From positions 36,672,075-36,736,074 of the forward strand of contig JAQNBH010000002.1 in NCBI GenBank assembly GCA_028752905.1: 64,000 nucleotides of DNA, read 5' to 3'. The notes beneath the pieces were generated by a model. The model was not told the origin of the DNA. It saw only the letters and a list, made by a program, of their open reading frames with translations, and searched no databases. This document shows, piece after piece, positions 450 through 61,534 of the stretch. Each line of letters starts with the position of its first letter. Position 1 is the first letter of the stretch. This DNA comes from Cladorhizidae sp. MBARI D1340-BT2. Lineage: Eukaryota; Porifera; Demospongiae; Poecilosclerida; Cladorhizidae. The position numbers were made by a program, and so were the translations under genes.

Positions 450-1400
450 TCAGTTTACTACTTTGAGCTCTAGCATATCAGTTAGCTCAGAGCTGTTGTT
501 ATGAATGAGATCCTCTTCACAATCTTCGATATTCTCTCCTCGAGGCAACTTCAGTATTCCCATTCTGATGATCTTTTCTTTTCGAATCAGCGAAATTATT
601 ATCCAAACGATCAAATTAAAAACACAAATCAATATCATTAGCCATGCAAATGCTACACCAAAAAATAAGAGCATAACATGTTCCCGCCCGCTGGGAATCG
701 TTCCATCTTTTTCCTTTTGCTGCTCAATGAAACCTCCAAACAAGAAGTAGCCTCCCAGTATAAACCAAGTACCTTGAAGCAAAACGCATGTCCCTAAACC
801 CAGGTTTATCAAAAGATTAGTGGCAGACAAAAACCTTAGGATGGAAAACAGGAAGCAGGCACTGATAGCGATAACTAGAATGGCATGAATATATTCATTC
901 GCTCCTGTTTTTGCAGTTTGGTGAAAGTGGAACATTAATCCTTCGATGAAAAATGCCAGTGAGAGGAAGGTGTTGCTGGCATGGCGAGGTAAGTGTATGC
1001 ACATTGCAAGAAGATCCACTACACCAGAGATAATAAAACCGCAGACTATAGTAATGTGAAGTAACTTGGCTTCAATGTAGAACTTGCCATCAGGGTTAAA
1101 GATGTGATAGACAGATGCTGATACCTTTTTATGTCCATCTTCTCCAACAATAATTTTGAAAAATATTTCTATCAGCAAATAGAAAACACACAGGAGTATC
1201 CTCAGCAGTGGCTCCAGTGGTAGATTAGGACAACAACATAGAGGAAGCCAGGAGCGCTGCTGTAGAACTGAGATGTGATTCTGTGTCAATTTCGGCTTTT
1301 TTCGGTTTGTGATATGGTTCCAGATTGAGTTGATAATCCAGTATATCCCCATTACGGAGACGATCACTCCTATAATGATATGAGCAGCAAAATTTCCCAT
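450..1400 (-). CDS. TMEM45/DUF716-family multi-pass membrane protein
   Basis: A 316-residue uninterrupted frame with a true ATG (complement of 1398-1400) and TGA stop. The product starts MGNF, as TMEM45A/B proteins do, and has about seven hydrophobic segments spread over residues 5-270. Around residues 150-215 it carries the family-like stretches FIEGLMFHFHQ, EYIHAIL and LLQGTWF, with histidines placed as in TMEM45 proteins. Human TMEM45 proteins are about 275 residues, so this one is longer, mainly in a loop near residues 30-105 and an acidic C-terminal tail. The family is known as Golgi/endosomal or plasma-membrane proteins without a settled biochemical role, so no precise function is given. 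No intron is needed to explain the frame. No TATA box or poly(A) signal was found with confidence. Family recognition is from memory of the motif pattern, not from a search. Confidence 0.85.
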   Translation of the reverse strand: MGNFAAHIIIGVIVSVMGIYWIINSIWNHITNRKKPKLTQNHISVLQQRSWLPLCCCPNLPLEPLLRILLCVFYLLIEIFFKIIVGEDGHKKVSASVYHIFNPDGKFYIEAKLLHITIVCGFIISGVVDLLAMCIHLPRHASNTFLSLAFFIEGLMFHFHQTAKTGANEYIHAILVIAISACFLFSILRFLSATNLLINLGLGTCVLLQGTWFILGGYFLFGGFIEQQKEKDGTIPSGREHVMLLFFGVAFAWLMILICVFNLIVWIIISLIRKEKIIRMGILKLPRGENIEDCEEDLIHNNSSELTDMLELKVVN

Positions 1401-28576: not shown

Positions 28577-31072
28577 TCATATATATTTCTAGGCCTAACC
28601 TTATTTAGTCAAATCCATGCCCAAGGTAATAGAAAGTCGGCTAGACATTATATATTTTGAGGCCTAACTACATTTAGTAAATTCCATCCCCAAGGCAATA
28701 GAAGTAGGCTACACTGTATATATTTGTAGGCCTAACTCTATTTAATTGCCAAGGCAATAGAAGTAGGCTACACTGTATATATTTGTAGGCCTAACTCTAT
28801 TTAATTGCCAAGGCAATAGAAGTAGGCTACACTGTATATATTTGTAGGCCTAACTCTATTTAATTGCCAAGGCAATAGAAGTAGGCTACACTGTATATAT
28901 TTGTAGGCCTAACTCTATTTAATTGCCAAGGCAATAGAAGTCCCTACACAATATACATTCAACAGTCCTAACATTATTTAGTGATGTCAAACCCATGGCA
29001 ACAGAATTCAGTTATAGAGTACATATATATATATTTGTAGACCTCACTTTATCCCCCAAGCAACAAAAGTGAGCTACACGGAGTGTATATAGCTAGGCCT
29101 AAATTTATTTAGTAAAATCCATCCTCAAGGCAATAAATGTCAGCTTACAGAGTATATATTCCTAGTCCTAACTTTATTTCGTGAAGTAAAACCCAAGACA
29201 GCTAAACAATATATATTTCTAGGCCTAACTTTATTTAGTAAAATCCATCTCTAAAGAAGTCCGCTACACAGTAGTCCTCACTTTATTCAGTAAAGTCAAA
29301 CCCAAGGCGACAGAAGTTAGCTACTCTATAAAGATATTAATTTATTTAGTGAAGTCAACCCCAACGCAACAGAAGTCAGATAGACAGTATTTATTTCTAG
29401 ACCTAACTTAATTTAACAAAATCAACCCCAAAGGCAACAGAAGTAAGCTACACTGTTAATATTTATTGGCCTAACATACTTAGTAAAATGAATCCCCAAG
29501 GCAATAGAAAACGAGCTACACATTATATATTTCGAGGTCTAACTACATTTAGTAAAATCCTCCCCAAGGCAATAGAAGTAGGCTACAGAGTATATATTTG
29601 TTGGCCTAACTCTATTTAGAAAAATCAATTGCCAACGCAATGATTCAGCTGTACAATATATATTCAATAGTCCTAACTTTATTTAGTGAAGCCAACTCCA
29701 AGGCAACAGAAGTTAGCTATACAGTATATACTAGTCCTAACTATATTTAGTAGAGTCCACCCTAAGTAAACATATATTCCTATTCATAACTTTATTTAAT
29801 AATGTTGACACCAAGGCAACAGAATAATCAACATATTAAATATTCCTAGTCCAACATTATGTATTAATTCAACTACAAGACAAGAGAAGTCGGCTACACA
29901 TTATATATTTCGAGGCCTAATTATATTTACCATCCCCGAGGCAATAGAAGTAGGTTACACACAAGTAAAATCCAGCAATAGAAGTCATCTACACAATATT
30001 ATATTCAATATTTAGTGAAGTCAACTGCATGGCAACAGAAGTCAGCTACACTGTATATATACAGTATATATATATCTAGGCCTAACTCTAGTTAGAAAAA
30101 TCCACGCCCAAGGCAATAGAAGTCAGCTGTACAATATATAATATTTCTATGCCAACTATATTTAATCTCCTAGGCAAAAAAAGTCAGCTACACAATATAC
30201 ATTTCAAAATATACATTTCAAGGCCTAACTATATTTAATCTATATTTAATGAAGTCACCACCAAATGAAGAGATGTAAAAAATGTGTAATATTTATACGC
30301 TTAGTAAAATACATCCAAAAGGCATTAGATTTCAGCAACAGCATATAGCTATATTTCTAGGCCTAACTTTATTTAGTAAAATCCAACTGCAAGGCAATAG
30401 AAATCAGTTAAATAGTATTAGTCTTAAATTAAGTTAAGCCCAGGCAACAGACGTTACCAATATAATATATATTTATAGTTAAATTAGTAGAGTCCAACCC
30501 TAGACAACAGAATTTAGTAACACTATATTCCAATCCAAAAATTGTTAAAAAATTCACACCAAATAAAAATTAGTAATGTCCACCACAATGCAAAGAAGTT
30601 AGTTAGGTACTATATATTCCAAGTCCTTAGTATATATATATATCCGGGCTTAACTCTATTTAATAAAATCAATCCCACAGGCAATAGAAGTCAGCTACAG
30701 ATTTAGTAAAATCCACCACAAGGCAAAAGTATTTGGACCGATATACCTTTATTTAGTAAAATCCATCTCCAAGGCAATAGAAGTCAGTATAATTATGTTA
30801 ACTTGTAGTAAAATCCACACCAAGGTAACAGAAGTTAGCTATATAGAAAGTCCTAACTTGATTGATTTAATTCAACCACAAGGCAACAGAAGTAACTACA
30901 TTTCTATATAGGCCTAACTTTATTTATCTACCTATCACCAAGGCAATAGAGGTCAGCCACACAGTATATATTCCCAGTCCTAACTTTATTTAGTAAACCG
31001 AACCCCAAGGCAACAGTAGTCAACTATGTATTAAAATCCATTCCCAAAACAATAGAAATCAGCTACAGAGTT
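28577..31072. repeat. Segmental duplication copy B (2.5 kb)
   Basis: Direct copy of 22,398-24,400 with scattered single-base differences. It also carries the 59-bp amplification at 28,704-28,939 and about 370 extra bases at 29,540-29,890. Part of that extra segment matches 25,195-25,345 in the diverged array, so the loss was probably in copy A. Confidence 0.85.
28704..28939. repeat. Local 59-bp tandem quadruplication
   Basis: Four exact or near-exact copies starting GTAGGCTACACTGTATATAT at 28,704, 28,763, 28,822 and 28,881, against one in copy A (about 22,528). A recent expansion of one unit. Confidence 0.9.
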
Positions 31073-32160
31073 TACATTAATAAATTAACTTTATTTAGTA
31101 AAATCAATCCACTTGGCAATATGTCAACTACGGAGTATATAGCTATTCCTTGTCCTAACTTTATTTAGTAAACTCAACCCCATGGCAAAAGAAATTAGAT
31201 AAATTTATTGACCTAACCATATTTAGTGTAGTCTAATCCTAGCCAACAGAAGTTAGGTAAACTGTATATTCCTTTAATAAATTCACTATATGGTATACAT
31301 TTCTAGCCCAAACATTATTTAGTAAAGTCAATTCCAAGGCAATAGAAGTCAGCTACAGAGTATATATTTCTAGGTCAAACTATATTTAGTAAAGTCCACC
31401 CCCAGGCAACAGAAGTTAAGCTACATACAGAGTACATGTATATATTATATCTAGGCAATACTTTATTTAGTAAAATCCATCCCCAAGGCAATAGAAGTCA
31501 GCTACAGAATATTTCTAGTCCTAACTATATTTAGTAAAGTCCACCCCCAGGCAACAGAAGTTAAGCTACATACACAGTATATATTTCTAGGCAATACTTT
31601 ATTTAGTAAAATCCATCCCCAAGGCAATAGAAGTCAGCTACAGAGTATAATTATATTGTTAGTCCTGACTTTATTCAACCCCAACATAAGAGAAGGCAGC
31701 TATACAAATATATTCCTACCCCTAACCTTATTCTAAAGTCCACCCCTAGGCAACAGAAGTTATGTAAATAGCATATTGCTATAGTCCTAACTTTATTTAG
31801 TAAATCCTCCCCAAGTAAACATAAGTTAGCTATATACATGCTATATATTCCTGCATAAATGTATTTAGTGAAGTCCACCCCAGAGCAACAGAAGTCAGCT
31901 AAGCAGTAGATATTTCTAGTCGCCATCCTCTACCTGGTAGTCCTAACTTTATTTAGCGTTCCCAAGACAACAGATATCAGCTACACAGGTTATATTGCTA
32001 GGCCTAACTTTATCCATCCCCTAGGCAAAGTTGGCTATCTTCTTTAGTTAATGAAGTCAACCCCTTTGCCACAGTATATATATTAGGCCAAACTATATTT
32101 AGTAAAATCATCCCCATGGCAGCTACAAAGTATATATTTCTAAGCCTAATTATATTCTAT

Positions 32161-32419: not shown

Positions 32420-32424
32420 ATTTT
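32420..32424. repeat. Target-site duplication, left (ATTTT)
   Basis: ATTTT directly before the left LTR is matched by ATTTT at 38,031-38,035 directly after the right LTR. Five bases is the usual duplication size for Ty3/Gypsy integrases. Confidence 0.8.
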
Positions 32425-32618
32425 TAGTTAAGTGCAATGCACCATCTCGATGTCAGATCAAAGAGGATTGAATATAGTTATTATCTGCATGAGATGTGTG
32501 CATCAATTGAGTGTATGTCATGGGGCATGCGCGAGGTAAGGGGTCATCAATCGGATGAAGGGCCGTACATAGTGATATGCTATACAGGTATGGGCTAGGT
32601 AAGAGTGAGTATTGTCTA
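32425..32618 (-). repeat. 3' LTR (194 bp)
   Basis: Starts TAG and ends CTA on the plus strand (a 3-bp inverted end), not the common TG...CA. About 98% identical to the other LTR. Contains the TGTGTGCATCAATT segment (plus strand) that is complementary to the primer-binding region. Confidence 0.93.
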
Positions 32619-32629
32619 TCTCCCCCCAA
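32619..32629 (-). other. Polypurine tract
   Basis: On the minus strand TTGGGGGGAGA abuts the 3' LTR without a gap. In LTR elements this RNase H-resistant purine run primes plus-strand DNA synthesis. Position and composition fit exactly. Confidence 0.88.
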
Positions 32630-32651
32630 GTCCTACGTCAGGGGGACTGTG

Positions 32652-35338
32652 TTAGGTTGACCGTTGTCCGTAGCGTATGATCGGCTTAGGCTCTCTCTTG
32701 TTGCGTCTGGGTCCAGGAGCAGGAGTAGGGGTTGTGGGGAAGGAGAGGTTCGGGATCTTCGCCAGGTTCTTCAGGTTGGTTTGGATTGGGCTATGGGGGG
32801 GTGTCGGGGTACCGGCAACGGAGGCGTAAGGACCAGCAGCTCTCACAACACCCGCTGGTGGCTGCCAGCTTGGAGTTGGTGCTGGGGGTCCCATCGGTGT
32901 CGTTGCGCTCATCGGAGGACGCATCGGTGTCGCAGAGCTCATCGGAGACAGGGGGTGGATCTGGGGTGGGATAGGGGTATGGGGTAAAATGGATGGAGCT
33001 GGTGTTGGTGGCAGTGGCTGTTGTGAAGGGAGGAGGTGGTCCGGCAGTCGCCGTTTGAGCGGGTCGTCTGGTGTCGTCGGAGTGGTGACCTGTTTACGTA
33101 GGAAGCGACGGTTGCGCATTGTCAGTCTGCCGTTGCCGTCCATTCTCACTTGGTACTGGTGGTACTGGAGCACCTCGACGATCACTCCTGTTTTGTCCCA
33201 CTTTGTTGGGTGACGGCCTGTTTGGTTCTGTACAAAAACCTTGTCACCACAACGAAGGGGGGAGAGGCCGCCGGAGTGCTCGTCCCATCTTGCTCGGCCG
33301 AGAGATTGGCAGTGGGCTAGTGCCTTGTCTCTGATTTGCAGGCGCGAGTCCATGTTCCTTGGCTGTCGCAGCCTTGCTGGGATTACGGGGAGCAGGTCCC
33401 TGATGGGTCGGCCGTAAAGGCATATGGCCGGCGACATCCTCGTATCAGGGCTGGGGCAGTTTCTGTAGAGGAGTAAAGCTTTAAAGAAGGCCGATTGGAG
33501 GGAGCCCCCAGGGCCGGTGTTGCCCGATATAAGGCGCTTCATGGTCATCACAGCGGTCTCCGCTCGGTTGTTAGCGTGTGGGTGGTACGCTGAGGATACC
33601 CTATGGTGAACACCCCAGGTGGATAGGAGCTCTCTTGTGGAGTGTGCGGCAAACTCTGGCCCGCCATCCGACGTCAGGGTGTCGGGTATGCCATAAGTTG
33701 CAAAAGTGTCCCTGAGTATGGTGGCAAGGCCTGTGGCCCCGTTGGTGGCCGGGGCGACGATGGACCAGCCAGAGTACCGGTCGACCAGCACCAGGTATGC
33801 GGATCCCTCGTGGTGGAAGAAATCCGCACAGAGGTGCTGGAAGGGGTACTCTGGTTCCTCCGGTGTGGTCGAGGGCATCGCTGGCTGGGATGGGGCGTTG
33901 GCGTTGCATGTGGGACAGCTGTTTCTTGTAGCTGATATATCAGTGGTTAGGCCTGGCCAGTACAGTGATGAGGTTGCCCGAGCTGTCATCCCGCTGGTGC
34001 CCTGGTGCGCCGCATGGAGGGCTGCAAGGCATGTTGGTTGTAGGGCGGCAGGAATGATGACACGTTCTCCGTAACAGATGACACCGTCGATGATGGAGAG
34101 GTTGTCTATGATTGGGTAGTATGCCCGGATGGCAGCTGGTAACATGTGCCGGGATTCTGGGGGTCCTTCCTCAACATAGTACATGAGGTCCTGCATTATC
34201 GAGTCGGCCGTAGTGGCGATTTGGAGCTGCTCCCAGCTCACAGGGATTGTTGTGATGGCTGAGCAGATTGCGTGGTGTAGGCCGTCGTCCTCGATGGGCT
34301 GAGGGGAGGCGCAGTGGATTACCTCGTTGGCTGAGTCCTGGCTTCCTGGGCAGGCAGGGCTGGGTGCTGGGATGTCATCTGGGAGGTGGAGTCGTGGTGG
34401 TGTTCGGGTCCCGGATGGGTGGCGTGAGAGGGCATCGCTGGTGTGATTCCTTACGCCAGGGATGTACACCATCCGGAACCTGTACCGGAGCGTCTTCTCC
34501 TTGATATTGCGGAGGAGTGGGTTTGGTATTTCCTCGAGGCAGCGATCACCGAATAGCTTCAGCAGTGGCTTGTGGTCCACTGCTACAACGAGGTCGCTGC
34601 ACCCGAGGACGAAGTGGCGGGCCTTGTCCAAGGCATCGGCTACCGCCAGGGCTTCTCCCTCCACAGGGGCATATCGTGACTCAGCAGCATGGGTGAAGCG
34701 CGAGCCCACCAGGGTGACGCGCCAACCATCCCGGCAACAGAACAAGTCACGGGACGGGCACTGGCAGTGTTTCTGGAACAGCCAGAACCCGATCCCGTCC
34801 TTGCTCCAGTCGGTCGCCAGGCAGGTTGGGCGGTCCTTGTCAAAGATTTCGACACCGACCCTGATGTGCTCGCAGATGTGATGTTTTGAGGTTGCAAAGG
34901 CTTCCGCCAGCTCGCTGGTCCATTCGAAGGGTGTAGATGGTTTCAGGAGAGCCCGGAATGGGAGCATTGAAGTAGTCATTGCAAAGGTGTAAGAAACCTG
35001 GTTCACAAGGCCAAACCAGGCACGTACGTCGGTGATGTTTACTGGGGTTGGAAAGTCAGTGATCAATTGGAGGTATTTGTCAGTGGGTCGTACCTCGGTT
35101 GGTGTGACGGTGAATCCGGCGAACTCGACAGTGTCCTTGGCAAATCGGAATTTGCGTGGGTTTAGGGTGATGCCATTCACGGCACAGATGTGGAGCCACT
35201 CAGTCGCCTGATGGAATGCTCCCGTGATGTCGTCCGACCAGAGCAGTGCATCGTCGATGCACTTGGTCTTGGACGCCACGTTGGCGACGAGGGCATCGTA
35301 CCTGGCCGTGTAGGCATCACCCGAGGCGATGTAGCCTT
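32652..35338 (-). pseudogene. pol: Pol, second part: RT palm end, RNase H, integrase
   Basis: This frame continues the polyprotein after the frameshift at the C7 run (35,339-35,345). The first methionine an ORF caller would use (35,279) is really GTG inside RT, so no separate start is implied. In order: RT active-site motif CIDDALL (variant of YxDD), then RNase H with ATDWS, EGEALAV, VDHKPL and DALSR. Integrase follows, with an HHCC finger (H-X3-H, then CPTC) and the catalytic triad seen as CADFF, SDGGPEF and NNRAET. A C-terminal module (GDKVFVQN through GVIVEV and YQVRMDG) looks like the usual DNA-binding end, followed by a proline-rich tail. Stop TAA at 32,652-32,654, 22 bp from the polypurine tract. 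All catalytic residues I can see are present, so the lesion is confined to the junction with the upstream frame. Confidence 0.9.
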
Positions 35339-37722
35339 GGGGGGGCGGTTAGATATCTGTATCTGCACCATGCGGTAATGAATGTTGTGAAATGCCGATC
35401 TCTCTCGTTGAGTGCTACGGAGTGGTAGCCATTCCACGCGTCGAAAATGGTCTTCTTGGTTTTGCGTGGAATGGCCCGAGCCTGGTGGAATGGAGATGGG
35501 CAGTGATGGGTCTCGCGCGTGGCGTGCTGGTTTAGGGGTTGAAAATTGATGGTCCTCCTGAGTGACCCGTTCTTCTTGGTGCAAATCACCATGCGGTGGC
35601 ACCAAGTGACGGGCGTGCCCAGGGGGACCTTCTCCAACACGCCAAGGTGGACGTCCCGGTCAAGACCAGCCTTCACCTCATCCTGCCAGTGGATGGGGAT
35701 GGCGATGGGATTGTGGCAAGGTTTGGGGATGGCGGTGGGGTCGATGCTCAGGGATAAGGGGGGTCCAGACATCATTGGGAGGGGCTGGTGCTCACAGACG
35801 TTGAACCAACTCGCTGAGTATAGTTCCAGCAAGTGACGCTCAAGTCTGTGGCGGTTTTCCTCAGTGCCGGGGAAGGGCAAGGAGGAGGGTCTGTCTGGGG
35901 GGGGGGGGGGTGCCCTGGTTGGGCATGAGCAAGGTCTGAGGGGGGTGGGTGCAGTGTGCCTCACCATGGGTGGAGTAGTGGTATGGGGTCCTGGAGGTTT
36001 GGCCTGCAGGTCCGCTGTGGTGTTCATCTTGGTAGGTCTGGGCACATGATGGATGGGTCTGGTCTGCAGGTCATCAGTTCTGGTCAGCAGGTTCTCAGGT
36101 CTGGTCAGCAGGTCCTGGGCTGGTGACAGTGGCTGATCAGGGGTCGCCCATGTATTCGTGCCGTTTCCCGAAGGTGGCGTCGACGTACAGAGGGGGAACC
36201 CCTTAGCGATCAGCCCAAGGTCATAGCAGGTGGCCAGGCTCAGGTATAGCTTGGTGGCCAGAGGGCAAAAGTAGACCATCTGCCTGGTCTCTCGAATGGT
36301 GTGGCAAGACTTGATCCGTAGGAGGGCAGCCCCGATGATGATGGGGAGGGCGTTGCCACTTGCTGATGACATGGAGAGGGTGGCCGGGATGAGGTCGTGG
36401 GGGCGGAGGTGGAGTTCGCGCATCAGGAGGGGTCCAGCCAGACAGCTTTGGCAGCCAGTGTCGGCCAGGGCAGTGGTGGTCAGGTTGTGGCGCTCTTCCC
36501 TCAAGGTGTGGCCATGGGCCTGGTAGTCTGCCTTGTAAGTCGAGACCTTCACCTGCATATTCGGTTGGGGTGGAAATCGACGTTGCACCCAGGTGTTAGT
36601 TGACGAGTCCCATGACTGGTGTGGTAGTGAGCCCTCGGATAGTGTGTTGGTTTCCTCCGTGATGGCACTCTCCTGCTCGGCCTGCTTTTGCCAGCAGAGG
36701 TGGGCATAATGGTTGGTGCGGCCACAGGACGAGCAGGTGGAGCCAAAGGCCGGGCATTGGGTGCGCCTGATGGCCGTTCGTGCTCTCTCCCCGTGGCCAT
36801 GGTTGCCACAAAAGCAGCATGTGGCCTTTGGGTTAGTGGGCGGCCTGCCGGTGTTGGGTTGCCCTTTGTGTGGGATGGGCTGGTTCCTTGGTGGTGGCTG
36901 CAGGCGGTTTGGTTTGCTGGTGGGGTCTCGCACGGATGATCGTGGGGTGGGTGGGCGCTGTTGTTGCCTGTAACCACTCCGGAGGGCATCTTCATGGTCA
37001 GCCTCCTCGTCGATAATAAGGTTTGCCGAGGTGGGTGTCGTGATGGTGACCGCGGACCACTTGCCCGCGGCCCTCACCTCAACAAATCTTATTGTCTCCT
37101 CCACGGTCATGGCCTGGTTGGTGTCTTTTAGGAGGTCCTCCTGGATGTCGGGGTCGGCGAGACCAACGCAGAGCTGATCTGCGACCCTCTGTTCCCCCTG
37201 GTTATTTACCACATCGCAACCCGAGCATTTCTTGACGAACATGCAGACTTCCGCTTGGCCGCGGAGGCTGGCAGCAAAGGAACGGATGGGCTCCCCCCGG
37301 TCCTGGACCATTCTGGAGAGCGCAACACGGGCGACCTTCGGGTTTTCCTCCCGGACAGCGAGGGCTTTGATGGCTACCAGGAGGTCTGCTTCGGTATGCT
37401 CCTCTATAGGTAAGGGGCCCACAATGTTCCGTGTGACGTCACGTCTCAGCTTGGAATCTAAGCACTCCAGCAGTTGGATTGCCACGTCGGGGCCAGCCAG
37501 ATGGACGGCGAGGGAGTAGGCCCTCCATCTGGTTAAGAAATAGTGCCACCCCTCAGTGGTCCCTCCGGCTGTGACCTCTGGACGGCGGACAGGCGTTAGT
37601 TTAGTCCTGGCAGCATGACTATGAACCAGCATGTGGCCATTCAGTAGGGCGGCCACCACTAGTGGGGGCGTCCCATCCGGTGTGGCAAAGTCGCAGCCCG
37701 GGTAGGGGCAGTTCACTGCCAT
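35317..37722 (-). pseudogene. gag-pol: Gag, protease and RT N-terminal part
   Basis: The first in-frame ATG is the complement of 37,720-37,722; the longer frame from 37,755 would start with GTG. Near the start is a C2H2-like finger (CPYPGC then HMLVH). A gag-like region follows (about residues 40-230). A basic proline-rich linker leads to zinc knuckles: CCFC with following histidines, and the canonical CSSCGRTNHYAHLC (about 330-343). The aspartic protease motif is ALADTGCQ (about 421). After another proline-rich linker come the RT finger motifs, WCHRMVICTKKNG and RRTINFQPLN, and FDAWNGYHSVAL. The frame ends prematurely just after a seven-C run in RT and reads about eight wrong residues to a stop at 35,317. 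No stop separates gag from pol, so this is a single-frame polyprotein, as in Tf1-like elements. Confidence 0.9.
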
Positions 37723-37823
37723 GAGGGTGGTGGGCAGTAATTGGGATTTCGACACTGGACGATCCCCGAGCCGGTACTTTTGCCGGTGCAGTCTCTAGCA
37801 ACTATCAAATGCTACGCTGACTG

Positions 37824-37837
37824 AATTGATGCACACA
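37824..37837 (-). promoter_or_regulatory. Putative self-priming primer-binding site
   Basis: Directly inside the 5' LTR the minus strand reads TGTGTGCATCAATT, perfectly complementary over 14 nt to AATTGATGCACACA within the same LTR (complement of 37,908-37,921). No TGG-starting tRNA-complementary sequence is at the LTR edge. In Tf1/sushi elements the transcript's own 5' end anneals here and, after RNase H cleavage, primes minus-strand synthesis. This would put the transcript start at about 37,921, giving a U3 of about 109 bp and R-U5 of about 84 bp. Confidence 0.7.
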
Positions 37838-38030
37838 TAGTTAAGTGCAATGCACCATCTCGATGTCAGATCAAAGAGGATTGAATATAGTTATAATCTG
37901 CATGAGATGTGTGCATCAATTGAGTGTATGTCATGGGCATGCGCAAGGTAAGGGGTCATCAATCGGGTGAAGGGCCGTACGTAGTGATATGCTATACAGG
38001 TATGGGCTAGGTAAGAGTGAGTATTGTCTA
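37838..38030 (-). repeat. 5' LTR (193 bp)
   Basis: Direct copy of 32,425-32,618. On the minus strand it begins TAGACAATACTCACTC and ends CACTTAACTA. Contains the self-complementary segment at 37,908-37,921, the predicted start of the element's transcript. Confidence 0.93.
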
Positions 38031-38035
38031 ATTTT
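38031..38035. repeat. Target-site duplication, right (ATTTT)
   Basis: Matches 32,420-32,424 exactly. Evidence of integrase-mediated insertion of the element between them. Confidence 0.8.
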
Positions 38036-38457: not shown

Positions 38458-39043
38458 TTACAACTTTAGAGCTCCGTAGATTCTGCAAGCTTCATGGTAT
38501 GGACTTGATATATAAAAGATAGGTCTCTCTGTGTGCTCTCTTTTGATACTAAAATATGTTTCATAGGTATAACTATAGGCAAGTTACTAGACCCTAAAGT
38601 GGAGGCACCTCAAAAACCTGCATCCCAAAGTCCCAATTCAGAATAACTCCAGATTGAAATTGGCTAGAGGAAGCCCTAGAGCATGCAATGACCTTTTTCA
38701 TTAGGCTAAAAAAATGTATTACCTGGTCAAGCGCGCGGGGGGGGGGGGGGGGCGTTGATTGGAAAATTGAGGGCAACGCCCTCAATTTTCTACCCGAGCG
38801 CTGGTCATTGCATGCCACTCGTACCAATTCATTTTTTTTTGCACTTAGCAATCTGGAGTTATTCTGAATGGGGACTTTGGGATGCAGGTCCCTCAACTTT
38901 AGGGTCTAGTAACTTGCCTATAGTTATACCTATGAAATATATTGTAGTATCAGATGAGAGCACACAGAGAGACCTATCGTTTGAGCTATATATCAAGTCC
39001 ATACCATGAAGCTTTCAGAATCAACGGAGCTCTAAAGTTGTAA
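38458..39043. repeat. Fold-back (inverted-repeat) element 1
   Basis: Left arm 38,458-38,693 and right arm 38,803-39,043 are reverse complements with moderate divergence. Shared blocks include TTACAACTTTAGAGCTCCGT, CATGGTATGGACTTGATATA and GGCAAGTTACTAGACCCTAAAG. The spacer holds a G-rich run (about 38,736-38,752) and a perfect hairpin at 38,762-38,790 (13-bp arms, AAC loop). A diverged one-arm copy lies at 12,960-13,112. No transposase; this resembles a non-autonomous inverted-repeat transposon. Confidence 0.85.
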
Positions 39044-39412: not shown

Positions 39413-39912
39413 AAAATGCATGCATCTTCAGAAACAGGGACCCTCCTTCTCTTGGCAGACCCCCACTATATATATACTCTTTTTTTTTTAATCAAAAGCT
39501 GTAAATTGGTTTGTGGCTTGTCAAAGCTAACAGCTGTGATATGAGTCGTTTAACATTGCAATAACTAATAACTTGTTAGGTCTCTTTTGTGTGTATATAT
39601 ATATGTTAGTTTTATCTATGGACAGTGACTTTATTGTGTAGTGTATATATTGTGATGAAATAACTAAAGTGGTTGTTGAATGGCAACGTGCCGTATTTGA
39701 TTACGCGCTAAAATTGTAATTTTAGCGGCGTAATCAAATACGGCACGTTGCCATTCAACAACCACTTTAGTTATTGCAATGTAAAACGACTCATATCACA
39801 GCTGTTAGCTTTGACAAGCCACAAACCAATTTACAGCTTTTGATTTAAAAAAATGAGTAGTGGGGGTCTGCCAAGAGAAGGAGGGTCCCTGTTTCTGAAG
39901 ATGCATGCATTT
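39413..39912. repeat. Fold-back element 2, near-perfect palindrome with nested insertion
   Basis: Arms meet at a 2-bp centre (39,716-39,717). The left arm starts at ATGCATGCATCTTCAGAAAC and the right arm ends with its complement. About 195-200 bp per arm match with few differences. The left arm is interrupted by a 92-bp insertion (39,567-39,658) flanked by AATAACT on both sides (39,560-39,566 and 39,659-39,665). High arm identity suggests a recent origin. No coding capacity. Confidence 0.88.
39567..39658. mobile_element. 92-bp nested insertion with 7-bp duplication
   Basis: Present in the left arm only of the palindrome at 39,413-39,912. Flanking AATAACT repeats are consistent with target-site duplication. 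Contains a GTGTATATATATATG tract. Too short to classify. Confidence 0.55.
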
Positions 39913-40031: not shown

Positions 40032-42311
40032 TTATGGGCATTCAAAGTCAACAGACGTTTTTTTACCAGTTAAGGGTGAACTACCCCCTAGTTCAGATAA
40101 GTAGAGAGCTGCTAGAAACTCTTGGAAGGTGAGGTGGAGAAATGTATATGTATTATCAAGTCGTTGTAGATAAGCAGTCCTGTCAACAGTAACCAAGCCT
40201 AGGGTAGGCGCATCATTGCAACCAGTACCAGTACCTAGGGAAAGTTGTACTTGGGCGACTCTCTGGCAAACTGATTGTCTGGAGTGAGTAGTCATGTCGA
40301 GGGCCAGTTCACAGATCTTGTTGAAGTATCCTCTGTCATTTCCGCGTAAATCATCTATTGAATCAGGTTGTGCATTTTCATTAGTACGTCTTAGATTATG
40401 CAAGACAATATATTGGGTGAAGTGCTCGTAGATTTTCGTCTCAGTTTGTGGAATGTTGCCTCTCTCCCATTCATATAGGAAGCATATCATTGTAAGATTT
40501 ATCGGCAAATAGCACATGCGCAATAGGTTGGGATGGGAATTTAGATATGCCTTCAGTTGAGCTAGTGAGACATTGGACGTGTCGGAAGAGAAGGGATACG
40601 TGTCGATGTAGTCAAGGATTTGCTGATGAATAAATCCAAGCACTTAGATGCGTCTGGTGACGTGTTGTTTGCACCTTAGTTTGTCAGTGGCAACTGGGCG
40701 TGAGGTCACTATGATCATGGCCGCAGGAAGGTACTTCTGATTTAGTAATTGATGGATTACGGACTTGGTTTCGTCCTGAGGATGGAACTCGTCCAAGCCG
40801 TCAAGTATAAAGCATGTCCCCTTGCCATTAGATTGCTTAATGTCTCTGACAACCTTTTCACACTCTTCTCTGTCATGATAGAGAAGGTCAAGAAGATCTG
40901 ACAAGTCTTGAGTCTTTCTGTTGGCTAACTGTCGGAGTGGAATATGAAGGACCAGCTTTGCACTCGTCAGTACCTCCCCACCTGTGGCCCAGTCTCGACT
41001 GACCTTATGCACTAATGTAGTCTTCCCACTACCAGGCCGACCTTCTACAAGCACCAATGATCCACTCTTATACTCACCAAACACTGTGTCATACTTAACC
41101 TTCTCCTTCGTCTCCAAGATGTCATCCGCATCTCCCCTCACTGAGTATTGATAAGCATGAGTGATCTCCTTCTTCTTTTTGATGAGCACGAGGTTGATGA
41201 AGGTGCTATTCACTTTGGGCGGCCACGAGTCCTCAGGGACATCTGCATCCTGTGCGTATGATGTGATGAGATGCTCCTTTTCTGGAGGGAAGATCACAGT
41301 CAAGGGAACTGCTTCACAAATAAGGACTTTCTCACTGCCTTTGGCTATGTGGCAGGTATACTTCCCTTGAGCTGCTTGCCTGGCTTGGTGGATGAGGAGT
41401 ATGGGTGTTTGTGAACCAGAGTAACGTAGGCTGTCAGTTAAGGTCTGCCCCTCTTTCTTCCACAGGTAACTTGCTCCCTCACCGTCACTGACTTGGACCT
41501 CTATGAGAGTGGAACTGCCTTCTGGTACTTCAGTGCCGCATGATTTGTTGACTATCTTCCAGCCAATGGCTAAATTTGCCGTCCTTGTCTCCAGTATTGG
41601 CACAGATGGTTTCTGAAGCTCTCTAAATTCTTTCCCCAAGCTCAGTGCCACATTGGCTGCTCCAACAGGCCCACTGGCTAGTTTCTGCTCCAGGTATTTC
41701 AGAGTGGCAGGTGTGGTCCCTTTGCACGCTCCTGTTACCCACTTCAAGAGAATGTTTTCCAGTCGGAGTATATTACTGTTGCCATTCTTACAATCTACTC
41801 GTACTGATTTAGACAGACCCAGTGCCAGGTCAAGCTCCTCCCACTTATCGCTAAACACGGCAAGAATCTCCACCAAATCAGCAACATCATGTTCCAAAAG
41901 AGACGTGTCATTTCCTGCGACCTGGCCACTGGCTGCCTCATCACGACCTTCTGCACCTCTCTCAGACCCGCACACAGCCTCACTCAGGCGTCTAGCCAGC
42001 TGTCTCGCACCACCACCATACCCATCCAGGACGTGAACAAACTGATGGAACACAGCTATGTCACTCCTCACCCCCTCACACACGTGTTGAAGTAGGTACC
42101 GCACTTTTAGCTCGGCATCTAGCTTGTCGTCCAGTGCAGCAAACGTGTCCTTCACTGCCTCAGAGATGACCAATGACTTGCACAACTTGACCGAGATATC
42201 GACCAGGCTGATGCCGGACACTTGTGCCACCATGTCAGCTTTGTAGTCCTGCAGGACGTTGTGCTCCTTGCTTTGCTGAGGCCGAGCTTCCTGTTCAGCT
42301 GAAGAAGACAT
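40032..42311 (-). pseudogene. NLR-like NACHT protein: CARD-like, DEATH-like, Ig-like, NACHT; one in-frame stop
   Basis: The first ATG is the complement of 42,309-42,311. Numbered from it: an alpha-helical CARD-like domain (about 33-113, with YLLQHVC and FHQFVHVLDGY); a DEATH-like domain (about 138-226, with KWEELDLALGL and LLKWV); an Ig-like domain (about 238-341, with YLWKKEGQTL and GKYTC, the B-strand cysteine apparently absent); then NACHT. Walker A is GRPGSGKTTL (about 424), Walker B is FILDGLDEF (about 501), and the sensor is IIVTSRP. At residue 556 a TAA (complement of 40,644-40,646) interrupts the frame. The same frame then continues for 203 codons with helical and winged-helix sequence ending in FLHLTFQEFLAALYLSEL, the standard NACHT C-terminal motif. 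Thus one nonsense codon splits an otherwise sound gene. No LRRs follow; a possible splice donor (CTG|GTAAAA) lies near 40,063. NLRs of this type are cytosolic innate-immune sensors. It may be a pseudogene, a null allele, or a base error. Confidence 0.85.
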
Positions 42312-42403
42312 CTTCAAAGAGAGGGAGGGAGGAGGAGGGAGCCAGAGAGAATATGTGATTGGGACAGGGGAGGAAAGGAGGGAGGATTAAATCAGGGAGA
42401 TGA
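42312..42403. other. Purine-rich 5' flank of the NLR-like gene
   Basis: Only about 90 bp (GGGAGGGAGG-type) separates the NLR-like start codon from the 40-bp satellite. No TATA box seen. Any promoter or upstream exon must lie here or beyond an 18-kb array. Confidence 0.5.
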
Positions 42404-60286: not shown

Positions 60287-61534
60287 GTGACCAAGGCCGA
60301 TCCCTACCAGATGCCTGTAGTGCAAGACCTCTTGGATGATGTCGCAGAGGCTACCTGGTTGTCGAAACTCGACATGAACAAAGGCTTCTACCAGGTGCTC
60401 ATGCAGACTGGAAGCCAGGAGAAGACTGCTTTCTGTTCACCATGGGGTAAATTTGCATTCACACGCATGCCCTTTGGGTTAACAAATGCACCAGCCACTT
60501 TCCAACGGTGCATGGATCAGCAAGCTGAGTTTAGCTCGACTTACATTGATGACGTTTTAGTCTATTCCAGCTCATGGGAGGAGCACATAGAGCACCTCAG
60601 AGGTGTCTTGGAGGCACTGAGGGAGGCTGGGCTAACTGCTAAACCCGACAAGTTTGTCTGGGGGGCTCAGTCTCTTGAATACCTAGGACATGAGGTAGGG
60701 AATGGACTGGTGAGCGTACCTGAGGCAAGGGTGAATGCCCTTAGATATTTTGCTAGGCCTGTAGACAAGAAAGCGTTAAGGGCATTCTTGGGCACTGCAG
60801 GGTATTACCGGAGGTTTATTCCCGGGTTCGCCCAGATGGCAGGGCCTTTGTATGATGCCCTGAAGAAGGGGGCTGCCAACCTTGTAGGGTGGACTGGGAA
60901 GCATATTGGGGCATTTAATCATCTTATATGTGTTCTTTGTGATGCACACACCCTCACATTGCCGAGGGATGCTGACGCCCTGGCCCTCCACACGGACGCT
61001 TCGCTGGGAGGGGTCGGAGCCGTGCTATCAGTTGTCAGGGACGAAGAGGATCTACCGGTAGCATACTTTTCAAAGAGACTGACACCGGCCGAGCGGAATT
61101 ACAGCGTGACTGAACTGGAATGTCTGGCAGTTGTCAAGGCAATTGATCACTTTGCCATCCACCTGCTGGGACGAGAGTTTACCGTGGTGACTGACCACAC
61201 TGCACTGGCAGCCCTGAAGCATTCTCATAGACTCAATGGTCGATTGATGCGATGGGCACTGGCACTCCAAGCGTACAAGTATAAGGTGGTCTACCGTCCG
61301 GGCGTTCTCCATCAAAATGCTGATGGGTTATCTCGACAATCATGGCCAGAGGCGAACGACTTGCTGGGTAAGGATGCTAGACAGGAAGAGGCGCAGTGCC
61401 TGCAGCTGGGAGCAAGCCCTGCTGACTTACATGCCCAGATGTGGGTGGAACAACGACCTCCAGCCGGTTCCACCTTTAGTGAGGGGAGATGTCAGGGGCC
61501 GCCTGACATGGCCAAGCCTGGCCATAACCCGTAG
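60287..61534 (+). pseudogene. pol: Ty3/Gypsy fragment: RT and RNase H, 5'-truncated by satellite
   Basis: The open frame starts at GTG exactly where the 40-bp array stops, so the start is a truncation point, not a gene start. RT motifs are WLSKLDMNKGFYQV, FTRMPFGLTNAPATFQ and the catalytic YIDDVLVYS; then YLGHEV and FLGTAGYYRRFI. RNase H follows with HTDASLGGVGAVLS, TELECLAVV, VTDHTAL and QNADGLSRQ. The frame then reads about 70 codons through a purine tract (about 61,477-61,489) into an LTR before a TAG. No integrase follows RNase H. Either integrase was deleted or it normally lies upstream of RT, as in Gmr1-type Gypsy elements. It is clearly a different lineage from the 32-38 kb element (YIDD against CIDD). 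Confidence 0.9.
61477..61489 (+). other. Polypurine tract of the second Gypsy element
   Basis: AGTGAGGGGAGA lies immediately before TGTCAGGGG. Position and composition are those of a plus-strand primer site. Confidence 0.7.

Follow-up and report, generated by a model that had tools for sequence, protein, structure and literature searches.

Covariation between primer binding site and LTR points to self-priming in a group of animal Ty3/Gypsy retrotransposons

The window analysed in this study, a stretch of 64,000 nucleotides from an 857-Mb animal genome, harbors a Ty3/Gypsy LTR retrotransposon on its minus strand (window 32425–38030), and the question raised by this locus is which primer the element uses for reverse transcription. 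Its putative primer binding site (PBS) TGTGTGCATCAATT (37824–37837, read on the minus strand from 37837 to 37824) abuts the 5' LTR and is the exact complement of a segment of 14 nt, AATTGATGCACACA, within that LTR (37908–37921, read from 37921 to 37908). An earlier note on this DNA had pointed to this perfect complementarity, to one additional pair extending into the LTR, and to the lack of a tRNA-type site with TGG at the LTR edge. All three features can be read directly from the sequence of the window copy, the additional pair being formed by the last LTR base (37838) and position 37907.

The limits of the LTRs are supported by the presence of a second LTR, by a 5-bp target site duplication ATTTT at both ends of the element (left copy at 32420–32424, identical to the right copy at 38031–38035), and by a purine tract in front of the 3' LTR. 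While the 5' LTR comprises 193 bp (37838–38030, minus strand, TAGA...CTA), the 3' LTR revealed a size of 194 bp (32425–32618, minus strand) and an identity of 97.4% to the former. The polypurine tract GGACTTGGGGGGAGA (32619–32633, given in minus-strand letters) directly adjoins the 3' LTR, and a similar G-rich tract was also found ahead of the 3' LTR in relatives. Two open frames were identified on the minus strand, one encoding gag, a protease motif (ADTGCQSCLA), and the start of the reverse transcriptase (RT) (35317–37755), the other encoding the end of RT, RNase H, an integrase (H2C2, rve), and a proline-rich tail (32652–35279). Since both are located in different reading frames, the window copy is interrupted inside RT. 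The single gag-pol frame that the earlier note had ascribed to this element therefore holds for many relatives but not for the window copy; in related families, many copies displayed one stop-free frame of about 1,500–1,670 aa, and others contained stops. The order RT, RNase H, integrase expected for Ty3/Gypsy elements was confirmed by Pfam, and the best solved relative of protein P0098 was Ty3 (E 2.6e-35). Support for the protease comes from its motif, found in 35 of 120 listed homologues, and from Pfam hits below the threshold. Cys/His motifs of gag in the first frame were recognised by eye, and Pfam gave no match for this gag.

Several other features were detected in the neighborhood of the element. 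AT-rich degenerate repeats with units of about 60–80 nt are located close to the 3' LTR (30056–32021), and two pairs of inverted repeats (38514–38982 and 39482–39853), with arms of 97 and 87 nt that are 93 and 98% complementary, respectively, have a hairpin or MITE-like appearance. An open frame on the minus strand (40644–42317) revealed immunoglobulin and NACHT domains and possibly encodes an immune receptor, and a further one (450–1400, minus strand) carries a DUF716 domain. A tandem satellite array of 40-bp units extends from 54000 to about 60000, with about 150 units counted from 54000.

Allowing at most one mismatch, the 14-mer was found three times in the window, each time exactly (expected 0.03), the third occurrence being the corresponding segment of the 3' LTR (32495–32508). 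In a set of 200,000 random 14-mers generated with a first-order model of the window, LTR-complementary prefixes did not exceed 12 nt (two cases) and thus never reached 14 nt, and 5,191 other internal positions of the element matched the LTR over 8 nt at most. These controls bear out the earlier judgement that a chance match of 14 nt is very unlikely. Folding of the predicted RNA leader, which the earlier note had proposed, resulted in formation of the whole duplex at -50.7 kcal/mol (z -3.73), and none of 200 shuffled sequences reached a value as low. Chance or a local artefact is, moreover, already refuted by other families, as the match is present in ten families in total, and we regard its probability as negligible.

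These ten families consist of the family of the window element, at least eight more in the same genome (the L010, L013, L018, L019, L039, F9, F1629, and F1662 groups), which was searched with homologous proteins with 31–42 candidates scored per search, and L009, identified on a GTDB contig. The contig carrying L009 had been assigned to the bin of an Escarpia (tubeworm) endosymbiont but is probably host DNA. Forty stretches of GTDB contigs fitted the pattern, of which L009 was the only relative; the pattern scan of IMG/VR for relatives resulted in 21 stretches, none of them a relative, and a scan of IMG/VR for the junction of polypurine tract and LTR gave no match. An apparent "LTR" of 77 nt in L009 turned out to be merely the terminal overlap of the contig, and its true junction was read separately. 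F1662 displayed an LTR of 169 bp and the target site duplication TATAT.

Though the PBS differs between the ten families, each family possessed at least one copy in which it was perfectly complementary over 13–20 nt to its own LTR. In all ten evaluable families the PBS adjoins the LTR end with a gap of 0 nt, and in the seven families measured its partner segment is located 67–86 nt from the LTR end. Comparison of nine families, each with one representative copy, revealed perfect pairing of primer and PBS within every family (9/9), while none of the 72 cross-family pairings had one mismatch or less, the minimum being three mismatches. Eleven of the 13 pair columns displayed at least two Watson–Crick types with pairing kept (nine families). 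The proteins of seven families compared shared 50–72% identity in the best BLAST stretch. The self-priming proposed in the earlier note is thus strongly supported by covariation of the PBS with a segment of the own LTR across ten families, and also by one compensatory pair within the window family (described below).

A conserved stem in the leader of a retroelement can serve packaging, so the paired segments might also be a leader hairpin that is kept for packaging, dimerisation, or translation control, with a tRNA or another RNA acting as primer. However, the 3' arm of the duplex begins exactly at the LTR end in every one of the ten families, which is the place required for a primer, and its 5' arm begins at an A after C, a possible start site. 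In addition, the PBS begins with TG followed by A, T, or C in all ten families, and a TGG start of the tRNA type was found in none. Based on this, a hairpin of other function appears quite improbable. A tRNA site was also rejected, given the missing TGG start and nine PBS that each match their own LTR only. The same observation bears on a tRNA-derived primer, either a fragment or an internal segment, which resembles the LTR by chance: half-tRNA primers are known from some Ty1/copia lineages (PMC6317226), but tRNA use leaves nine different PBS that match only their own LTR unexplained, and we give this possibility practically no weight.

Priming of reverse transcription by the 5' end of the genomic RNA itself is by far the best explanation and very probably the correct one, because PBS and LTR covary, the hairpin in U5 represents a second covarying structure, and TGG starts are missing. 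From the arrangement in these families we infer a start site, a cleavage, the priming step, and copying of the primer, which would proceed as follows. Transcription would begin within the LTR, on the A of a CA dinucleotide (window 37921), and the first 13–20 nt of the RNA would fold back around the U5 hairpin and pair with the PBS beside U5, much as in Tf1. A cut behind ...CA would then provide the 3' end from which DNA synthesis begins opposite the terminal A of the LTR; such a cut is suggested by analogy with Tf1, and the ...CA that closes the primer on its inner side is kept in 9/9 families. Finally, plus-strand DNA would copy the attached primer, giving rise to a new PBS in each cycle. Primer copying of this kind would renew the PBS, and primer and PBS would therefore stay matched while changing together.

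The start of the RNA is placed at 37921 since pairing within the LTR begins at an A that follows a C in 10/10 families (representative copy), with GT coming after the CA in seven of the ten, as in animal initiators. The transcript start at about this position given in the earlier note therefore gains indirect support and remains a prediction from the sequence, and from it derives a putative U3 of 109 bp (37922–38030, minus strand). In the F9 group, two possible start sites exist, leading to 14 or 20 paired nucleotides, and the complementarity extends 6 nt beyond one of them. Shortly ahead of the LTR end, the window element displays a U5 hairpin (37845–37855, minus strand, GTGC-ATT-GCAC), and relatives possess a stem made of other bases at this position. 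In the list of 10 LTRs, picked by eye and not comprising F1662, the 4-bp stem was perfectly paired in all 10 with varying bases, including GTGC/GCAC, AGGC/GCCT, GATC/GATC, and GCGC/GCGC; folding of the single F1662 sequence did not form the hairpin. The U5 hairpin of these families is comparable to the U5-IR stem-loop of Tf1, which is reportedly required by that element.

Covariation was also followed within families, as the earlier note had suggested for other genomic copies of the window element. For the window family, 40 of 430 candidates were scored, and 28 of these 40, including the window copy, extend at least into the PBS region. Pairing of primer and PBS was perfect in 23 of the 28, affected by one mismatch in three, and unscorable in two, one lacking most of the PBS (L059) and one gapped at the first primer base (L052). 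In copy L058, a C-to-T change in the LTR is mirrored by a G-to-A change at the paired PBS position, representing a compensatory pair inside the window family. Examination of 30 loci from one genome search with homologous proteins led to 27 accepted LTR pairs; for L014 and L037 no pair was obtained, and that of L036 was wrong. A complementary run of at least 12 nt was found in 14 of these 27 loci; the remaining 13 belong to the L019 group and score a run of 7 nt because they share one internal A.C mismatch. Within the F9 group, F7 and F16b deviate by a single mismatch apiece, the duplex of L010 and L011 contains one G.U pair, and of six additional copies, F14 and F16a revealed no 5' LTR within the fetched stretch. 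L017 was excluded from the family comparison since its PBS is followed by the LTR end in inverted orientation. This order, PBS followed by inverted LTR end and PBS, resembles a snap-back product of reverse transcription.

The mismatch of the L019 group deserves a separate description. The group comprises 17 near-identical copies (L019–L035) of one family encoding 1574 aa, of which 13 carry an A in the LTR, in the context TAG, facing a C in the PBS, and the remaining four have a T at the mismatch position. The mismatch possibly reflects RNA editing or the use of two templates during copying. A-to-I editing was considered as a cause of the internal A.C mismatches of both the L019 group and F16b, but the independent events are too few for a decision.

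The outer edge of the PBS may bear on how the primer is copied. With self-priming, the nucleotide next to the PBS on its 3' side would lie against the RNA cap. A C at this position, noticed in the families read first, was followed in further families with a mixed outcome. It is a C on the minus strand of the window copy (37823), and C is the main base in seven of the ten families (window, L009, L013, L018, L019, L039, and F1662), or in eight if the F9 group starts at the upstream A; sequence further downstream contains 23% C. However, G was found in four of five readable copies of the L010 group (L010, L011, L015, and L016, not L012, with L017 omitted) and in 30 of 33 F1629 copies, the other three having C, which argues against a simple rule of a cap-facing C. 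An alignment of the 33 near-identical F1629 copies over 282 columns, in which coverage drops to 18 copies in upstream LTR columns, revealed only two columns with more than one odd copy. Opposite +1 of the RNA, 24 copies have T and nine have C, and in the cap-facing column 30 have G and three have C. Eight other columns contain a single odd copy each. Read together, the two bases result in the edge forms TG (21 copies), CG (9), and TC (3). All three forms are repeated in the L010 group, with TG in L010 and L011, TC in L012, and CG in L015 and L016. The edge TC is invariant in the L019 group (17/17) and in F1662 (13/13). In the window family, the cap-facing base is C in 25, G in one, and T in one of 27 readable copies, and the base opposite +1 is C in two of the 27.

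Reverse transcriptase of MMLV favours addition of C at template ends, while that of HIV favours A (PMC3877366). As a tentative reading, the PBS might be written from a capped primer and might thereby record each insertion. Plus-strand DNA would reach the 5' end of the primer and add a C opposite the m7G cap, and the base after the PBS would therefore become C; with transcription starting one base later (+2), the added C would fall opposite +1. We lean somewhat towards the explanation that the edge forms represent old subfamilies diverged through point mutations, or products of RNA editing, without any copying of the cap. The nine CG and three TC copies of F1629 could share descent, the main cap-facing base of this family is G and not C, and T-to-C changes in the PBS also occur inside the duplex as internal A.C mismatches (L019 group, F16b). 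In the window family, where LTR columns contain 0.23 odd copies on average, at least two odd copies were also found in 10 of 193 LTR columns and in one inner PBS column. On the other hand, subfamilies do not readily account for edge bases being the only columns among 282 with more than one odd copy in 33 F1629 copies, or for recurrence of the forms TG, TC, and CG in the L010 group, and editing of +1 leaves the change from G to C opposite the cap unexplained. If cap copying were true, the genome would store, for each insertion, the start position and the capped state of the parental RNA. The variable PBS edge of near-identical copies would also make the copying of the self-primer, an old question, partly answerable from genome sequence alone.

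With respect to known systems, the ten families are most similar in their priming to Tf1 of Schizosaccharomyces pombe, in which the first bases of the RNA are likewise complementary to the PBS. According to PMC7175516, the first 11 bases of the Tf1 RNA pair with the PBS and the RNA is cut between bases 11 and 12, with cleavage by RNase H generating the primer and RNA structures joining both segments. Like many relatives of the window element, Tf1 has one large gag-pol frame. In contrast to the 11 nt of Tf1, the families of our study pair over 13–20 nt, and they differ from it in LTRs of the form TA...TA; neither a chromodomain nor a Tf2-1 SH3 domain was detected in them. A chromodomain was detected in none of nine proteins at E <= 1 and in neither of the window frames at E <= 0.001, and the SH3 domain similar to Tf2-1 (PF24626) in none of the nine proteins at E <= 1. 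Based on the predicted proteins, the classification as Tf1/sushi-like given in the earlier note therefore stands in part: the element appears to work like Tf1, but as neither domain was found, it is not filed as Tf1/sushi. The scan with PF24626 matched two proteins, P0122 (above the cut-off) and P0128 (just below it), which are relatives of another Gypsy element of the window. This second element is represented by an RT/RNase H frame with the motif YIDD (60287–61534, plus strand), and in P0122, its nearest homologue, the C-terminal domains of integrase precede RT, an order similar to that of Gmr1.

Self-priming has been reported in fungi, vertebrates, and plants (PMC6317226, PMC4600332), and predicted self-primers include Tf1/sushi elements of vertebrates, Tcn1 of moss, and the TAR lineage of plant Ty1/copia elements (PMC6317226) as well as Tcn1 of Cryptococcus (PMC7175516). 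In Tf1/sushi, Tcn1, and TAR, the PBS is complementary to the own 5' LTR and not to a tRNA, as is the case in the families of our study. While these predicted self-primers belong to the chromoviruses or to Ty1/copia and come from fungi, vertebrates, and plants, the elements described here are of animal origin, lack a detected chromodomain, and possess a C(I/V)DD reverse transcriptase. A narrow pattern for the RT motif matched 81 of 121 proteins, with CIDD in 44 and CVDD in 37. Few of the 120 listed homologues bear the name of an organism, namely Mytilus, Batillaria, Thiodiazotropha MAGs, and a MAG of the Escarpia endosymbiont. The clade may be one of MolGy/PolGy or LGF, which are Ty3/Gypsy clades of molluscs and annelids (PMC6238403, PMC8556966, PMC8220671). 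The main texts of PMC6238403 and PMC8556966 on MolGy/PolGy and LGF do not treat priming, and PMC8220671 mentions the PBS solely in the introduction and in one legend. In the open-access literature, with subscription papers largely outside its scope, we noticed no case of self-priming in a Gypsy group of animals without chromodomain.

According to the sources cited above, known self-priming comprises the Tf1/sushi chromoviruses and one plant copia lineage. If it is also true for a group of animal elements with many families and no detected chromodomain, the mechanism would have arisen repeatedly or would be older than thought, and elements of this kind would be freed both from primers supplied as tRNA by the host and from defences based on tRNA fragments.
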